Source of the DNA: an uncultured Bacteroidota bacterium
GTDB lineage: Bacteria; Bacteroidota; Bacteroidia; Bacteroidales; F082
NCBI GenBank assembly: GCA_913055825.1
Contig: CAJXKB010000025.1
Location: 1-36,421, forward strand
DNA length: 36,421 nucleotides
Reading direction: 5' to 3'
Made by a program: the position numbers and the translations under genes. Positions 14,973 through 33,160 of this stretch are shown piece after piece. The notes below the pieces were generated by a model, which saw only the letters and a program-made list of their open reading frames with translations, was not told the origin of the DNA and searched no databases. How positions within the stretch are numbered: position 1 is the first letter of the stretch; every line of letters begins with the position of its first letter.

Positions 14973-15851
14973 TTATTTTACGGGAACTAACCGGTCTTCA
15001 TTCCCCAGGAACAGGTGATGATGATAAGGGTCGTACCGCCAATAACGGTGGCTGCGACGGTTGGCCGCAATGTGCTCATCAAGATACCTGTTCATAAAAT
15101 AGTCAAAAGTATAATCGGCATATGTACGTCCCAGGCTTTCGGCATAACCATAAATTTTTTTCAATGTTAAGCTATCTAAGCGATAAAGATATTGTAATTT
15201 GCCGCTAAAATCGTTTATACTAAACCCGCCTTTTACCCTGTCGGTCAATAAATTTTCTGCAAAAAGCACCTGATGCCCGATGGTTTTTTTTTGTCCGGCA
15301 TTAACCTTGCTAACTTCAAACCAGATATTTACATCCAAAGCTTCAAGTTGTTTACGAAATACGTAAGTTAGATCATCCACGAAAGCAGTATCAGTAAAAG
15401 GATAATATTGCTCATCCAGTTCAGCCTGTGCCACATTAATAACATACGCATTACCGCCCGCCGAAAAAAATTGTGCTGTTTGTTGAGCCCGGAAAACCCT
15501 GATCCCAAAAACTTTTAATTCAGCAGCATAGCCTTTAGCCAGCCGCGTCAGAAAAACAGAATCATCAATCAAGCGAATAAATTTTGAATGTTGCCAGAGC
15601 AGTTCTTCCTTTTCCTGTTGTGTTTTATAACTAAGGCTATCAAGGATATGCGATTTTTGATTATACTTATAGATGTTTTTTGGAAGCAGTAGCAGGATTT
15701 TAGCAGGTTTGAAAGTTTTCACGAATTCTTTAGCAATTTTTCGTTCATTTTGACCTTTGGTCTGCCCTGCAGTCACCATTAGCAAAGCGAACACAAACAT
15801 TGAAAACAGATATTTAAAATCAAACTGTCTCATTCCTGCATTTTTTCTCAT
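14973..15851 (-). CDS. Exported protein of unknown function
   Basis: I do not recognise this family. Starting from the ATG at 15851 the protein is 292 residues long. The N-terminus has a basic stretch, a hydrophobic core (YLFSMFVFALLMVTAG) and a likely signal-peptidase site near QTKGQ, so it is probably periplasmic or outer-membrane associated. There is no lipobox cysteine. The mature part is mixed alpha/beta in character and rich in Tyr and Lys, with a histidine-rich tail (YDPYHHHLF). An ATG at 15833 (MRQFDFKYLF) is an alternative start; the open frame further upstream looks spurious. It precedes the deacetylase-like and GNAT-like genes on the same strand, so a link to the envelope is possible but unproven. 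Confidence 0.7.
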   Translation of the reverse strand: MRKNAGMRQFDFKYLFSMFVFALLMVTAGQTKGQNERKIAKEFVKTFKPAKILLLLPKNIYKYNQKSHILDSLSYKTQQEKEELLWQHSKFIRLIDDSVFLTRLAKGYAAELKVFGIRVFRAQQTAQFFSAGGNAYVINVAQAELDEQYYPFTDTAFVDDLTYVFRKQLEALDVNIWFEVSKVNAGQKKTIGHQVLFAENLLTDRVKGGFSINDFSGKLQYLYRLDSLTLKKIYGYAESLGRTYADYTFDYFMNRYLDEHIAANRRSHRYWRYDPYHHHLFLGNEDRLVPVK

Positions 15852-16006
15852 CTGACTATCTATATCGGATGGCAATATTAAAAGTTGGGCATTTGAAACA
15901 CCCATATTTCAATTTACTATGCCGTTTATTCATTGTTAACCAGTTCGTATTTACCACTTTATGCCCAATTTTTTATATTTCGTGTTGGGGTGCGTTATTT
16001 ATATTA

Positions 16007-16675
16007 TCAGAATGGCAAATCATCGTTTTTATCATCACTCCGTTGGACTGTATTTTGTAAATCATACCAGCCAGATAATTGCAAATAACATCTTTCATTC
16101 ATATCTGTATCTTCTGGTTTCCACCATCTTGCTAATGATATTCTCATCAAAGTACCACTTGGAATTATTTGTTTTTTTGGTTCAAAACCAACATATCGAA
16201 AACGCTTTGCTCTTGAAAATGAATTTGGAGTGGGATAGAGGTAGTACTTTTCATCATTGTCTAATATCAAGTCCTTATCAGAAATCCAGAATCCAACACT
16301 ATTTTGTGGTAGATTATTTCTATTTTCAATATAACCACTTCCCGAACCAGTCCAGCCTAATAAGCCATTAAAAATATTATTTGGAGAACCACGAAATATT
16401 TGAATACCACTATTTTCAATAAAATTCGTAAAATTATCGACTTTGCGTAAAAACTTTTTGGTACTTATTATTACATCCTCAATATGCGGTGGATCAACAT
16501 CTTCCCTCTCTGTAAAATTTATATCCCAAATATCTCCTATGTCAAAATCAGTATCAGCATATTGGTCCCAGTTTCCAGGATTTAACAATCTTACAAACCT
16601 ATTGTTTGAAACTATCAAGCCACCTACACAAGCGGCTTTTCCTTTATGTGTTTTTGATGTGATTAATATTTCCAT
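16007..16675 (-). CDS. Dual-OB-like protein linked to DUF488 genes (tentative)
   Basis: This 222-residue protein is all-beta in appearance. It starts with MEILITSKTHKGKAACVGGL, followed by RFVRLLNPGNWDQYADTDFDIGDIWDINF, which looks like a small barrel with a nucleic-acid or ligand face. The second half contains GFWISDKDL and RFRYVGFEPKKQIIPSGTLMRISLARWW. From memory this matches proteins annotated as dual OB domain-containing, but I could not verify it. Its ATG shares one base with the stop of the upstream DUF488 gene (TAATG), indicating strong translational coupling. It ends 13 bp before the left inverted repeat of the cassette. A role as the nucleic-acid recognition part of a three-protein system is inference. 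Confidence 0.6.
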   Translation of the reverse strand: MEILITSKTHKGKAACVGGLIVSNNRFVRLLNPGNWDQYADTDFDIGDIWDINFTEREDVDPPHIEDVIISTKKFLRKVDNFTNFIENSGIQIFRGSPNNIFNGLLGWTGSGSGYIENRNNLPQNSVGFWISDKDLILDNDEKYYLYPTPNSFSRAKRFRYVGFEPKKQIIPSGTLMRISLARWWKPEDTDMNERCYLQLSGWYDLQNTVQRSDDKNDDLPF

Positions 16676-17151
16676 TATAGATGCTTTATTTTGTATCCTA
16701 ACTTTTCAAGTTTATCGCTTACAATTGATCTATGGCAAGCTTCCGGCTTTTCTTCAACACAGAATAAAACAACATTACTTGCAGCAACTTCATCCAGTTT
16801 GTCCAAAAAAGCATTAAAATCAAAGTTGCTTAATATTCTGTCTTTGTAGGCTATCGTAAAGGCCTTTCCTAATTTATCTCTATCACGTTTTAAAACACCT
16901 TCTTGTGCATCCGCTTCTTTTTGTAATTCTCTAATTTCTTTTGTTGGTGCAAGGTCAATAATGTGAGCATATTTAATATCAAGTTCATTTAACCTTTGTT
17001 GCAATCTATTGCTATTTACAAAAGCATATTTTGAACCCCTGACACCTCTACGTTGACGTATATCACAAAAAGTATCTATATTATTATCAATTAATTTCTG
17101 AAAATATTCTTGTTCTGTTGAACCATAAACTCCTATTGTAAAAAAATTCAT
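16675..17151 (-). CDS. DUF488 family protein (second copy of the cassette)
   Basis: This 158-residue protein shows the DUF488 hallmarks. The N-terminal strand is TIGVYGSTEQEYFQKLIDNN, then FCDIRQRRGVRGSKYAF with the conserved DIR. The C-terminal motif is VLFCVEEKPEACHRSIV, with a conserved Cys and the CHR triad. DUF488 proteins have no settled biochemical function; the conserved Cys, Asp-Arg and Cys-His-Arg motifs look like an active site. It is clearly divergent from the neighbouring DUF488 gene, so the pair is not a recent duplication. It lies 8 bp after that gene and overlaps the downstream gene by one base. Confidence 0.88.
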   Translation of the reverse strand: MNFFTIGVYGSTEQEYFQKLIDNNIDTFCDIRQRRGVRGSKYAFVNSNRLQQRLNELDIKYAHIIDLAPTKEIRELQKEADAQEGVLKRDRDKLGKAFTIAYKDRILSNFDFNAFLDKLDEVAASNVVLFCVEEKPEACHRSIVSDKLEKLGYKIKHL

Positions 17152-17159
17152 AAAGCGTC

Positions 17160-17726
17160 TTATTTATATTTTTTTCTTGAACCAAAAGACAATTCTTCTC
17201 CAAATAGATTAACAGTTCCATTTGGTGCGACAATTGACATTACATCTTTTTGGTCTTTAATAATTAATTTTTTTTGTTTGTTTTTTGTTCTTGTAATATG
17301 GTTAAGGTTAATACCAATTTTGATTAATTCTTCTCCAATAAGTTTGGTTCTATGACATTCTTCGGGTTTGCTTTCACTACACATTATGGCTACTTTAATT
17401 TTTTTTTGATTTGCCATTACAAGTCTTTGTAGACCTTTCTTAAAAAAATCTTTTTCTTTTAGTTTATCATAATCAACATGTCCATTTGTATAACAAGAGG
17501 TGTCATCAGGCAATCCACCAAGAACATCTCCCATGAATGCATATGTAATACCATTTCTTAAAAGCGAAAACTTTAATGCATTTTGATTGAAATGTGGACT
17601 ATATTTTGAATATGGCTTTGACCTAATATCAATCAAGTAGTCAATATTAAAATGCTTTAACTCCTCAATAAAAGTTTCAATACTCTTGTTTCCATGTCCT
17701 ATTGAATATAATGTCGACTTATCCAT
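17160..17726 (-). CDS. DUF488 family protein (first gene of the cassette)
   Basis: This is a 188-residue protein starting at the ATG at 17726 (MDKSTLYSIGHGN); the open frame upstream crosses the promoter and is not used. Family motifs are YSIGHGNKSIETFIEEL, YLIDIRSKPYSKYSPHFN and AIMCSESKPEECHRTKLIGE. A C-terminal tail of about 50 residues ends in FGEELSFGSRKKYK and carries PNGTVNLFGEEL, a short motif also seen at the end of other DUF488 proteins. The function is unknown. It is the first gene of the cassette and sits 4 nt behind a -7 box. Confidence 0.88.
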   Translation of the reverse strand: MDKSTLYSIGHGNKSIETFIEELKHFNIDYLIDIRSKPYSKYSPHFNQNALKFSLLRNGITYAFMGDVLGGLPDDTSCYTNGHVDYDKLKEKDFFKKGLQRLVMANQKKIKVAIMCSESKPEECHRTKLIGEELIKIGINLNHITRTKNKQKKLIIKDQKDVMSIVAPNGTVNLFGEELSFGSRKKYK

Positions 17727-17730
17727 ATTA

Positions 17731-17738
17731 CAAATATA
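17731..17738 (-). promoter_or_regulatory. Candidate -7 box for the DUF488 cassette
   Basis: The minus strand reads TATATTTG (TAnnTTTG), ending 4 nt before the ATG at 17726. It lies inside the inverted repeats, so the cassette would carry its own promoter. Confidence 0.5.
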
Positions 17739-17807
17739 ATTTATATTATGTATTTGGTTTTTTATGCACCCCAACTATGCTATAGAAACGTTAATTCTGG
17801 CAAAAAA

Positions 17808-19010
17808 TTATGATTTGAGCATTTCTTTAGCAAATGCTGTGCCATATTCCTCCGCTCGTTGTAAATCTTTCTCTGTGGGTGAAAATTTAATAAAAACACC
17901 TTCCTCAAAAAAATTAAACTTTAGCGATCTCAGATTCTGCTCAAGCATCTTCCTGTTCTCGCCACTCCATCCATATGAGCCAAATGCTCCGGCTATTTTT
18001 CCATGATCGCGATAGGGATTGACAACCGCGAACAATCGATAAATGGGCAATAAAATATTTTGATTAATGGTGGGACTTCCTACAATTATGGCATTACTTT
18101 GCGTAAGTTTCATTTCGAGTTCTCCCAGCGGGCTATGCTCAATATCCATTAATTCTACATCAAAATCACCTGCACGCCGAATTCCGCGGGCAATGGCCCC
18201 GGCGATAACACCGGTTTTGTGATAAGCTGACACATAGGGAATAAACACCTTGTTTTTAGCGGGCTGCTTCAGGTATTTTTCGGCCCACATTCGGGTAAGG
18301 TCCATATACTGTTTCCAGTTTGATCTCAATATAGGGCCATGTCCGGGACAAATAGCCGCAATTTCCAACGGCTCAATTTTATCCAGTGCCCGAATCATAA
18401 AGCGGCTGAACGGCTTAATAATTACATCAAAATAATAGCGAAAAGCCACACTGAAATCATCCACTTCATCATCAAACATCCGCTCATCGGCAAAATGACA
18501 ACCAAATGAATCACAGGTAAATAAAAGTTTCTCGTCTTCAAGATAAGTGTACATCGTGTCAGGCCAATGCAGGTTGGGAGCCGATATAAAACGCAGTGTT
18601 TTATTGCCCAAATTCAACGTATGCCCGTCTTTAACAGCGATAGAATCAAAATCGGTACCGACTATATCTTTGAGGTATTTTATTGCCACAGAGGTAGCCA
18701 CCACTTTTGCTTTAGGTGCAATTTTCAAAAGATTTTTCAGGTTACCCGAATGATCCGGTTCGGTATGATTCATAACGATATACTCAATTTCAGCCGGATC
18801 GGTAACCGAACGTATTTTTTGCTCATAGGTTTCCCAAAAAGTTTCTTTTGAAGTGTCGATGATGGTTTTTTTATCAGCATTGATAAAATAAGAATTATAA
18901 GTGGAACCGAAGTCGGTTGTCATTACCACATCAAAAGTGACCAAATCGTAATCCAGTATCCCAATCCATTTCACATCGGGGCTAAGATTTAATATTTCGT
19001 TTTTTTTCAT
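17808..19010 (-). CDS. Flavodiiron protein (FprA family, O2/NO reductase)
   Basis: This 400-residue cytosolic enzyme reduces O2 to water or NO to N2O and protects anaerobes. An N-terminal metallo-beta-lactamase-like domain holds the diiron ligands in NHTEPDHSGN (H82, E84, D86, H87), H148 in PNLHWPDT, D167 in FTCDSFG, and a late histidine in CPGHGPI. The C-terminal half is a flavodoxin domain with the FMN-loop region VFIPYVSAYHKTGVIA and the later VGSPTINQN. The length is typical of two-domain FDPs; there is no rubredoxin or flavin reductase extension, so a separate electron donor is needed. The ATG at 19010 (MKKNEILNL) is preferred over a GTG nine bases upstream. Confidence 0.95.
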   Translation of the reverse strand: MKKNEILNLSPDVKWIGILDYDLVTFDVVMTTDFGSTYNSYFINADKKTIIDTSKETFWETYEQKIRSVTDPAEIEYIVMNHTEPDHSGNLKNLLKIAPKAKVVATSVAIKYLKDIVGTDFDSIAVKDGHTLNLGNKTLRFISAPNLHWPDTMYTYLEDEKLLFTCDSFGCHFADERMFDDEVDDFSVAFRYYFDVIIKPFSRFMIRALDKIEPLEIAAICPGHGPILRSNWKQYMDLTRMWAEKYLKQPAKNKVFIPYVSAYHKTGVIAGAIARGIRRAGDFDVELMDIEHSPLGELEMKLTQSNAIIVGSPTINQNILLPIYRLFAVVNPYRDHGKIAGAFGSYGWSGENRKMLEQNLRSLKFNFFEEGVFIKFSPTEKDLQRAEEYGTAFAKEMLKS

Positions 19011-30589: not shown

Positions 30590-33160
30590 ATGAAAAGTAC
30601 AAAATTACTTTTAACCCTTCTGGTAAGCGTACTCTTTGCCGGAGCAACACTTGCCCAGGGGGTAGTAAAAGGTGTCGTTATGGACGCCAACAACCATGAG
30701 ACCCTTGTTGGGGCTACAGTGGTTGTAGAAGGAACTACTGTTGGTGTAACCACCAACCTGGACGGTAGCTTTACACTGGTTTCCCCCGTTGGAAACCAAA
30801 CTTTGAAATTCAGCTATGTAGGCTATGTTTCTCAGGAAATAAAAGTTTCCGTTAAAAACGGTGCTACTTATAATGTAGGTACCGTAAACCTCAAATCAAG
30901 CGCTATTGGCTTAAGTGAAGTAAACGTGTTGGCATCTGTGGCCGTCGCGAGGAAAACACCTGTTGCTGTTTCCACCATTGATTCCAAATCAATTGCCGAT
31001 CAATTGGGAACAAAGGATTTACCTTCTGTTATGATTTACACGCCTAACGTTTACGTTACACCCACCGGTGGTGGTTATGGTGATTCCAGAATTAATGTAC
31101 GTGGTTTCGACCAGAGAAACGTTGCTGTGATGATTAACGGTATCCCCGTTAACGATATGGAAAACGGCTGGGTGTATTGGTCAAACTGGGCAGGCTTAGG
31201 TGATGCTACCCGTACCATTCAAATTCAGCGTGGTTTAGGTGCTTCCAAACTGGCTATTAACTCTGCCGGGGGTACCATCAATATCATTACAAAAACTACT
31301 GATATGAAAAAGGGTGGATCGGTTTATTTATCCACTACCGATTATGGTCTTATGAAACAAATGCTGACACTCTCCACCGGAAGGCTCAAAAGCGGGACTT
31401 CTCTTACTTTTGTTGGTTCGCACACTGCTGGTAGCGGTTATATTGATGCTACATGGACTAAAGCATGGTCATATTTTCTGTCAGTGTCACAAGAGTTGGG
31501 TAAAAACAACCAATTAGTATTTACAATCATTGGTGCACCCCAACAACACGGACAAAGAAATGGTTATTACATGCTGACTCAGAAAATGTTTGACAAATAC
31601 GGCCCTAAATACAATGAAAACTGGGGATGGCGCGGTGGCGAACAATTAAACGAACGTGTAAACTATTACCACAAACCTCAGATGGCCTTAAACTGGTATT
31701 CAAAACTGAGTGAAAAAGCTCACCTTGCTACTTCACTTTATTATTCATTTGGAACCGGTGGTGGTTCTGGTCCTTTAGGATACAATGGTAATGGCCATTA
31801 TTATAAATACGAACCACCCATGACGGCCAGTGGTCAATATGATTGGGATGCTTTAGCTGAATACAATGCCAATAACATCGATTCAACTTATTCGACTACC
31901 GAATCACGTTCACAGCACATTATCCGCAATTCGGTAAATAATCACCAATGGTATGGTTTGTTATCAACATTAACTGTTAATTTTAATGATGGACTTACGC
32001 TGACTACCGGTCTTGACATGCGTCATTACAAAGGTGAACATTACCGTGAAGTTCGTGACTTATTGGGTGGCGACTATTGGTACGATTACACTTTTGGCAT
32101 GAGCAAAGTAGGTGATAAAATTGCTTACTGGAACGATGGAATCGTTAGCTATACAGGCGTGTTTTCACAGCTGGAATACACCAAAGGTATTTTTAACGCC
32201 TTTGTTGCCGGTACTTTCTCAAATACCTGGAACAAACGTATTGACTATATGTCATACTACCCTACTGATCCTAAAGCCGTTAGCCCTACACTTTCTAAAG
32301 TTGGGTACGATTTTAAAGCCGGTGCCAACTTCAACGTTTCCGAAAGAAGTAACTTCTTTGTTAACGGTGGCTTATATTCAAGGGTCCCCTTCTTCCGTTT
32401 CCAGTTCCTGAACTATCGAAACACTGTCAATACCAATCTGAAAAACGAAACTATCACTGCTGCCGAATTAGGTTACAATTATAAGTCTGCTAAATTCAAC
32501 TTCAAATTTAATGCTTATTATACCGTTTGGGGTTCAATTTCACAGTTGGCCGGATTTGTTGCTGATAATGGTGCTTACGTCAACGCATTTATGTCTGACT
32601 TAAAAGAAGTTCACAGAGGTGTTGAATTGGAATCAACATGGTATGCAACCCGTTGGTTAAATTTTGGAGCTATGATTAACTTAGGCAAATGGACCTATGC
32701 CGATGATGCAACCGCCCTTTTATATGATGATCAAACTCATGCACAGATTGGTTCAGGTACCATCTATACCAAAGATTTACGTGTAGGGGATCAGCCCCAA
32801 AGTTCTTATGGCTTTAATGGTAATATTAAGCTCACCAAAAAAGTTACCTTTGGTTGGAACTACCTGTATTACACCAATCTTTATGCTAATTTCACTCCGG
32901 AAACCCGTAAAAATCCTAACGACCGTGCACAGGCTTACAGACTGCCTGACTATGGCAAATTAAATGTACGTTTGGGATGGAGATTTAAAATTGCCGGTAT
33001 GGATTCCTATTTTAACTGGAATGTTTATAATCTGACAAACAATATTACGTTGGTTGAAGCTGAAGATAAATATGACAGCGCAACAGGTACACACGTATTC
33101 AAAAAAGGATTCTGGAGTTGGGGTCGTAATATGAACTTCTCCCTGAAAGTTAAATTCTAA
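30590..33160 (+). CDS. TonB-dependent receptor, paralogue of the upstream one
   Basis: This is an 856-residue outer-membrane receptor. It has a signal peptide (about 1-23, ending TLAQ), a carboxypeptidase-regulatory-like domain (about 24-105, with MDANNHETLVGATVVVEGT) and a plug (about 120-236, with GDSRINVRGFDQRNVAVMIN and GGTINIITKTT). The barrel ends in FSLKVKF. It is a clear paralogue of the preceding receptor: both have SNWxGLxDA and PQxHGQR motifs and nearly the same length. It is not behind an RFN element, so its cargo may differ or its regulation may be independent. A very strong terminator follows. The ATG at 30590 starts a clean signal peptide. Confidence 0.88.
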   Translation: MKSTKLLLTLLVSVLFAGATLAQGVVKGVVMDANNHETLVGATVVVEGTTVGVTTNLDGSFTLVSPVGNQTLKFSYVGYVSQEIKVSVKNGATYNVGTVNLKSSAIGLSEVNVLASVAVARKTPVAVSTIDSKSIADQLGTKDLPSVMIYTPNVYVTPTGGGYGDSRINVRGFDQRNVAVMINGIPVNDMENGWVYWSNWAGLGDATRTIQIQRGLGASKLAINSAGGTINIITKTTDMKKGGSVYLSTTDYGLMKQMLTLSTGRLKSGTSLTFVGSHTAGSGYIDATWTKAWSYFLSVSQELGKNNQLVFTIIGAPQQHGQRNGYYMLTQKMFDKYGPKYNENWGWRGGEQLNERVNYYHKPQMALNWYSKLSEKAHLATSLYYSFGTGGGSGPLGYNGNGHYYKYEPPMTASGQYDWDALAEYNANNIDSTYSTTESRSQHIIRNSVNNHQWYGLLSTLTVNFNDGLTLTTGLDMRHYKGEHYREVRDLLGGDYWYDYTFGMSKVGDKIAYWNDGIVSYTGVFSQLEYTKGIFNAFVAGTFSNTWNKRIDYMSYYPTDPKAVSPTLSKVGYDFKAGANFNVSERSNFFVNGGLYSRVPFFRFQFLNYRNTVNTNLKNETITAAELGYNYKSAKFNFKFNAYYTVWGSISQLAGFVADNGAYVNAFMSDLKEVHRGVELESTWYATRWLNFGAMINLGKWTYADDATALLYDDQTHAQIGSGTIYTKDLRVGDQPQSSYGFNGNIKLTKKVTFGWNYLYYTNLYANFTPETRKNPNDRAQAYRLPDYGKLNVRLGWRFKIAGMDSYFNWNVYNLTNNITLVEAEDKYDSATGTHVFKKGFWSWGRNMNFSLKVKF

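Follow-up and report, generated by a model that had tools for sequence, protein, structure and literature searches.

A very probable solitary gene cassette of an integron-like system in an uncultured Bacteroidota bacterium

Integrons are the best studied bacterial gene-capture platforms and have rarely been reported in Bacteroidota. An integron cassette starts with one half of its own attC hairpin, and the R'' half precedes the remaining hairpin at the 3' end. We analysed a stretch of 36,421 nucleotides (the window; contig CAJXKB010000025.1 of assembly GCA_913055825.1, positions 1 to 36,421, forward strand) from an uncultured Bacteroidota bacterium of the Bacteroidales lineage F082. It carries a block of three minus-strand genes, encoding two DUF488 proteins (D488a and D488b) and a dual-OB-like protein (DuOB), which very probably constitutes a lone gene cassette from an integron-like system found widely in Bacteroidota, with a probable phage-defence module as its cargo. 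With the sedentary chromosomal integron (the Vibrio-type superintegron, with IntI and attC) this system has in common the tandem cassette array, the 3' hairpin sites, the G^TT core, the tyrosine recombinase beside the array and a cargo of defence and toxin genes. It differs in that its recombinase lacks the IntI1 insert, has an extra N-terminal stretch and is encoded in the same direction as the cassettes, and in that its sites have cassette-specific 10-bp R stems and a distance from R'' to G^TT that is about 119 nt in many cases and 180-190 nt in some.

As in single-attC or CALIN elements (PMC9024848), the window cassette has no neighbouring integrase, although its site belongs to a different attC family. 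For Bacteroidetes, the consulted passages of that large survey give only integrase-only elements (In0) earlier, plus one complete integron, in Salinibacter ruber. Integron carriers named in PMC2426708, PMC8618304 and PMC9668308 include the phylum or the Bacteroidetes/Chlorobi group, and no description of the present system was found in the consulted passages of these three papers. Among the literature matches listed for Bacteroidota integrons and defence cassettes (open-licence PubMed Central papers, with preprints and subscription papers outside the scope), no title describes this system, and none of the listed titles concerns DUF488 function, the family being named in one listed abstract (PMC9740157); an earlier description of the system elsewhere is possible.

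An original prediction, made from the letters of the window, had set the three genes inside a perfect 10-bp inverted repeat, GTTGGGGTGC, and both copies lie exactly where it had placed them (R' and R'' in Table 1), with the three genes as the only named coding open reading frames (ORFs) of the interval. The DNA is also AT-richer than its surroundings, as had been noted, with 27-33% GC inside the cassette versus 37-44% in the flanking windows. Because a perfect inverted repeat of at least 10 bp also arose in 2.2% of 2000 single-base shuffles of the two 100-bp flanks, near the predicted odds of about one in a hundred, the repeat by itself proves little. A third copy of GTTGGGGTGC at 31535-31544 is unpaired within the window, and the source genome contains seven copies, compared with three of the same pattern read backwards.

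The cassette sits between a flavo-diiron-type gene and a hypothetical gene, and in every one of the 20 relatives fetched these two genes are adjacent with no cassette between them (42 relatives have the flavo-diiron-type gene; ten of the 20 belong to the genus of the window). The gap between the conserved parts of the flanking genes measures 2004 bp in the window, leaving 95 bp once the 1909-bp cassette is subtracted, and it ranges from 50 to 161 bp at the empty sites of the ten same-genus genomes. In an eleventh same-genus relative (G006), neither flanking gene was matched. The three-gene block is therefore an insertion, and no target duplication is evident in the flanks examined. DuOB is present in 14 of 198 relatives (window genome counted), and for 12 of those 14 loci wider surroundings were fetched. 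In each of the 12 the DUF488 genes lie upstream of DuOB in unchanged order; one of them (L100) has a contig that stops inside D488b, so that the first gene is absent. A scan of one genome per species yielded 67 related loci, 60 of which have all three genes within the stretch fetched. The three-gene order thus occurs at other loci elsewhere, some of them with matching ends. The predicted discrete mobile unit is borne out by these empty sites, which the original prediction had proposed to look for, and by the recurrence of the gene order elsewhere; the idea of repeat ends shared by a mobile family is not, since the ends differ by carrier and the repeat is cassette-specific.

What the repeat represents became apparent from its comparison among close carriers (Brumimicrobium L121; Flavobacterium L122, L123, L125, L127, L133 and L146). 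Within each locus the upstream motif resembles or equals the downstream one, but the motifs differ between loci (GTTGGGG, GTTAGGG, GTTGTGG, GTTGGGC; the window core is GTTGGGG), indicating that the repeat is the core pair of an attC-like site instead of a shared transposon end. The element does not end at the left repeat, as had been supposed, but is carried 118 bp beyond it by the attC hairpin, down to 15866. The block thereby begins at G^TT and has, 3' of its ORFs, an attC hairpin of the R''-L''-loop-L'-R' form, as an integron cassette does. In the joined, circular form the window site makes a hairpin of 144 nt (3' end set by eye), and joined hairpins measure 144 nt in L121, L123 and L125, 145 nt in L122 and L133, 147 nt in L127 and 210 nt in L146. 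All eight fold energies are lower than those of 100 single-base shuffles (z -1.7 to -5.5; window -5.2), in a comparison where complementary joined ends favour low energy.

Moreover, a covariance model (R1), made from 19 sites of other genomes (nine of them from array L199) with the window site excluded, finds the window site at 15864-15986 with 59.3 bits (E=5e-9), at the end earlier set by eye. An A.C mismatch, reminiscent of the extrahelical bases of attC, is invariant in all 19 model sites. Under strict filters (E up to 1e-4), R1 sites occur in 106 of 198 Bacteroidota genomes; there were none in five genomes of other phyla and none in 15 loci (118 kb) from non-Bacteroidota records. The window genome contains 22 R1 sites at E up to 0.1. 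No Rfam family was matched in window 15500-18200 or L199 4800-19000. At least one further cassette of the source genome also appears to have inserted alone; it lies on contig C30 (L241, C30:14541), measures 1259 bp, starts at ...AACGAG^TTGGGTGC and ends at ...AAACG^GTATC.

Table 1. Features of the cassette in the window
Feature	Coordinates	Strand	Evidence or remarks
Whole integron-like gene cassette	15866..17774	-	1909 bp; from TTGGGGTGC (17774) to ...GCCATCCG (15866)
attC-like recombination site (R'', L'' stem, central loop, L' stem, terminal G)	15866..15993	-	model R1 and fold
L' arm ATGCCCAACTTTTAATATT	15874..15892	-	fold; sequence
L'' arm AATATAAAAAATTGGGCAT	15961..15979	-	fold; sequence
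R'' core of attC-like site, partner of R'	15984..15993	+	GCACCCCAAC on coding strand
DuOB, candidate dual OB-fold protein, 222 aa	16007..16675	-	PF22557 70 bits (cut-off 27); AlphaFold2 pLDDT 92.6
C-terminal DDLPF of DuOB	16010..16024	-	same as host SSB tip (PEDDLPF; L120 SSB ends APEDDLPF)
D488b, second DUF488 protein, 158 aa	16675..17151	-	PF04343 62 bits; PDC-M19A 66 bits; PDC-M45C 53 bits
D488a, first DUF488 protein, 188 aa	17160..17726	-	PF04343 73 bits; PDC-M45B 165 bits; model pLDDT 85.7
Putative -7 box, TATATTTG	17731..17738	-	fits TAnnTTTG; 12 nt before ATG
5' core site R' (GTTGGGGTGC)	17766..17775	-	architecture shared with 72 G005 cassettes

The same architecture recurs in long arrays. 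In the complete genome G005, of the same genus, 73 sites make up an array of about 88 kb, and almost all of them point the same way (76 matches, minus three on the other strand and one at E=0.72, plus one from an earlier scan). Across its 72 cassettes, the start agrees with the cassette's own R'' at 5.86 of 7 variable positions, versus 2.70 when shuffled (sd 0.16, max 3.28, 2000 shuffles); because this comparison uses bases outside the modelled columns, site selection cannot explain the agreement. The same A/G change at the eleventh base is found in 36 of 37 full-match G005 cassettes, which accounts for the exactly ten matching bases of the repeat in the window. The 11 cassettes of L199 gave 6.27 versus 2.89 shuffled, with none of 2000 shuffles reaching the observed value, and a match of 6 or 7 of 7 was found in all four intervals of L205 and all three of L146.

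The longest ORF lies on the sense strand in 53 of the 72 G005 cassettes. The cargo was scanned in 48 sense ORFs of at least 70 aa that lie within one fetched stretch, with a PADLOC tally covering 25 of 225 families, so that its member counts are lower bounds. PD-Lambda-5, SoFic, a retron-type reverse transcriptase and PDC-S01 appear as single members among the PADLOC matches listed, and caspase, SIR2, AbiJ and MazF as single Pfam members, together with at least two Fic matches and at least two matches to a TIR effector model. Twenty of the 72 cassettes (L270-L274) measure 512-521 bp; most of these resemble repeats of each other, have no plausible ORF, and could encode an RNA or be selfish cassettes.

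All three window genes score above their Pfam cut-offs, which upholds the predicted pair of DUF488 genes; their profile matches are accompanied by conserved DxR and CHR motifs. D488a most likely starts at the ATG at 17726, and not at a TTG inside the repeat, because its homologues begin there. Upstream of this ATG lies a putative promoter fitting TAnnTTTG, which we take to be the Bacteroidota -7 box consensus. Since 10 of the 14 loci compared (window included) have this motif with the same 12-nt spacing to the first ATG, it suggests a promoter inside the cassette, as had been predicted, and a nearly leaderless transcript. In the structural model of D488a, C116 is placed at the junction of a strand with the loop that leads into a helix, and the model weakly resembles Cys phosphatases, among other folds. 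The DuOB model is nearly all-beta with a loose tail (last blocks at pLDDT 53-55), and its best solved matches in Foldseek are the HIN domains of IFI16, AIM2 and p202, which are two OB folds binding DNA. With E 3.4e-3 and TM ~0.3, and no solved relative for the sequence profile, this likeness is likely one of shared architecture only. Structure prediction and search, which had been proposed as a check, thus favour the dual-OB description of the third gene through its all-beta fold, in line with its PF22557 match, with the two-OB matches themselves being weak; sequence searches of solved structures returned nothing for DuOB or D488a. The DDLPF end of DuOB, identical to that of the host SSB, occurs in 13 of 62 homologous loci with DuOB (DDLPW in one), although DuOB stands outside the SSB family: PF00436 matched two other genes of the source genome and not DuOB.

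The closest described counterpart of the cargo is the PADLOC defence candidate PDC-M45, which has the same gene order, with DuOB corresponding to PDC-M45A, D488a to PDC-M45B and D488b to PDC-M45C. A homologous system in L092 matches all three of these models. Judged by family and gene order, the cassette genes are probably a divergent version of PDC-M45, and the correspondence of the three families makes a defence role plausible. The alternative that survives best is that the genes serve housekeeping repair or modification of nucleic acids instead of phage defence. The SSB-like tail and the OB folds would suit repair, and the defence role is itself reached indirectly; we nevertheless consider housekeeping rather unlikely in view of the patchy spread of DuOB among the 198 relatives, the PADLOC candidate status and the defence-type families in the sister array. 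Taking this together, we lean with modest confidence towards a fork-associated DNA sensor that is used with two Cys enzymes against phage. At the five loci of the more classical PDC-M45 relatives (L093-L097) DuOB is larger, at 335-419 aa, and in three of them (L093, L094 and L097) the gene directly upstream is longer than 800 aa. In Psychroflexus (L126 1144-2709), DuOB lies inside a 521-aa frame, and attC-like sites are found further downstream.

The arrays come with a recombinase of their own. In G005 a tyrosine recombinase at 1942166-1943290 is followed by sites starting 1.1 kb on, and at seven loci (G005, L198, L199, L202, L205, L208 and L280) a recombinase gene of matching orientation precedes the first site detected. 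No site at E<0.5 was found in the examined stretches of L200, L201, L203, L204 and L206, or in the short pieces L286-L292. Alignment of the seven recombinases showed that R, K, HxxR, H and Y are kept and that the extra N-terminal stretch is present. A recombinase match of at least 320 bits, a line drawn by eye above the next group, is found in 30 of 60 relatives. In a tree, the array recombinases stand apart from XerC/XerD (99/97), and their place relative to IntI1 is not settled by this tree, which has several long branches. Their best NCBIfam match is NF040815 (XerA type), at 188-223 bits with a cut-off of 220, although this model extends over the core domains without reaching the extra N-terminal stretch. 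Plasmids can also carry the platform, since a Chryseobacterium plasmid (L280 7974-16669) has the recombinase with four attC-like sites after it. In L198 (6014-6918) and L199 (3945-4870), from Brumimicrobium and Flavobacterium, the recombinase is broken into two frames at nearly the same point, which would reflect either two decayed copies or a frameshifting gene. A recombinase on contig C43 of the source genome is not of the array kind, and an IS91-type zinc-binding frame (recognised by eye) follows it; an attC-like match of 41 bits lies directly upstream of this IS91-associated tyrosine recombinase, on the opposite strand (L207 2907-3029).

These recombinases also bear on whether the block might be an ordinary integron cassette, spread by canonical IntI-type integrons of other phyla. 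The G^TT core, the R''/R' pairing, the 3' attC and the ORF orientation are all integron-like, IntI1 aligns to the recombinase with about 30% identity over 65% of its length, IntI4 is its second best solved relative, and the name of NF040815 includes 'integron integrase'. We nonetheless judge this origin improbable. No match above the TIGR02249 integron-integrase cut-off (265 bits) was found in 14 genomes, and five whole recombinases reached 173-210 bits on this model, which is a poor marker in that all 14 control genomes have sub-cut-off matches. The gaps left by the IntI1 insert (about 31 and 11 columns) are seen in all 15 recombinases of the array family aligned with IntI1. The R cores vary from cassette to cassette instead of following the canonical consensus, which we take to be GTTRRRY. 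R1 finds nothing in a Vibrio genome, a weak test given that this genome, sought as a positive control for IntI, has no IntI over the cut-off; plasmid IntI1 was used in its place.

A perfect inverted repeat around an AT-rich insert, with relatives that have empty sites, would also be expected at the ends of a transposon or an element like a miniature inverted-repeat transposable element (MITE). We give this explanation very little credence, because the ends differ between carriers and co-vary within each, the interval holds only the three named coding genes, no target duplication is evident in the flanks examined, and the hairpin carries the insertion past the left repeat; a terminal-inverted-repeat transposon was rejected on the co-varying ends and the extension past the left repeat. 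A mobile family sharing the wide pattern GTTGGGGTGCGTTATTTA was rejected as well, with 15 matches (three mismatches, six genomes) versus 11 in the backwards control. A chance origin of the repeat, or its use by a resident operon as a local regulatory hairpin, is scarcely credible, since the shuffle rate of such repeats, which speaks for chance, is met by a locus empty in every relative fetched and by an independent R1 match at the predicted place.

Mobility of the block by cassette recombination is strongly supported, and several points weigh against it or against parts of the wider reading. What computation shows is where the cassette begins and ends, its hairpin, the empty sites, the arrays, the linkage of the recombinase to them and the families of the genes, and recombination itself is not among the observations. 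The covariation in R1 (15 of 16 pairs change on both sides, 98% paired) is partly by construction, the sites having been chosen by a stem-match rule and nine taken from one array. An attC within 60 bp after DuOB (E<0.01) is found in only 9 of the 67 related loci, some of whose contigs end there, and most homologues therefore travel otherwise. The start and R'' match in only one of three intervals of plasmid L280 and three of five of L198. Within the window genome, the start matches nine R'' bases at only 4 of 13 sites examined (window included); among the others two match seven bases, four match six and three have no match within the stretch examined, and some R'' of this genome lack a terminal AAC. 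After the 3' end of the window attC comes AT and not TT, which fits a solo insertion and leaves no array partner as confirmation, and the lowest-energy top-strand folds of L127 and L133 are not of a clean two-stem form. The recombinase of the window genome is seen only as a C-terminal fragment at a contig end. Two of five array recombinases reach the cut-off of NF040815 ('site-specific tyrosine recombinase/integron integrase'), so the protein family already has a name. As to the cargo, the window DuOB is too divergent for any PDC-M45A model to match, D488b scores higher on PDC-M19A than on its PDC-M45 counterpart, and the structure matches of DuOB and D488a are both weak (E ~3e-3, none at 0.001 or better).

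Taken as a solitary cassette of the Bacteroidota system, the block can be accounted for as follows. A circular cassette would carry an attC-like hairpin of about 144 nt, consisting of a cassette-specific 10-bp R stem, a spacer, an 18-position L stem with the fixed A.C mismatch and a large loop. The dedicated tyrosine recombinase, encoded just upstream of the arrays in the same orientation, presumably cuts at G^TT, which in the window would put the crossover between the G at 17775 and TT; both its action and its strand use are what we infer. Linearisation would then put the R' half at the cassette start and the R'' half before its end, giving the appearance of a perfect 10-bp inverted repeat. 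One such cassette would have landed outside any array, between the flavo-diiron-type gene and the hypothetical gene, bringing along what is likely its own promoter together with an operon of three genes related to PDC-M45. Within this operon, DuOB might sense single-stranded or unusual DNA and might dock on the network of SSB partners through its DDLPF tail, with the DUF488 pair possibly acting as Cys-dependent effector enzymes against phage.

Beyond this single locus, it is likely that Bacteroidota own a phylum-wide integron platform. It would combine a tyrosine recombinase independent of IntI with attC-like sites whose R stems are specific to each cassette, would store anti-phage genes in arrays of up to 70 or more cassettes, and would also scatter single cassettes to secondary chromosomal sites. 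That integron finders look for IntI and canonical attC would be why the platform has escaped recognition. If true, one attC-like family in more than half of 198 sampled Bacteroidota would mean that genes move by a large but little noticed route among bacteria of gut, soil and water, with the arrays serving as a stock of defence genes ready for use. Whether a second lineage of recombinases has evolved cassette recombination also becomes a question open to test, and the cassette described here offers the specific hypothesis of a dual-OB sensor that would be wired to the replication fork via an SSB-type tail.

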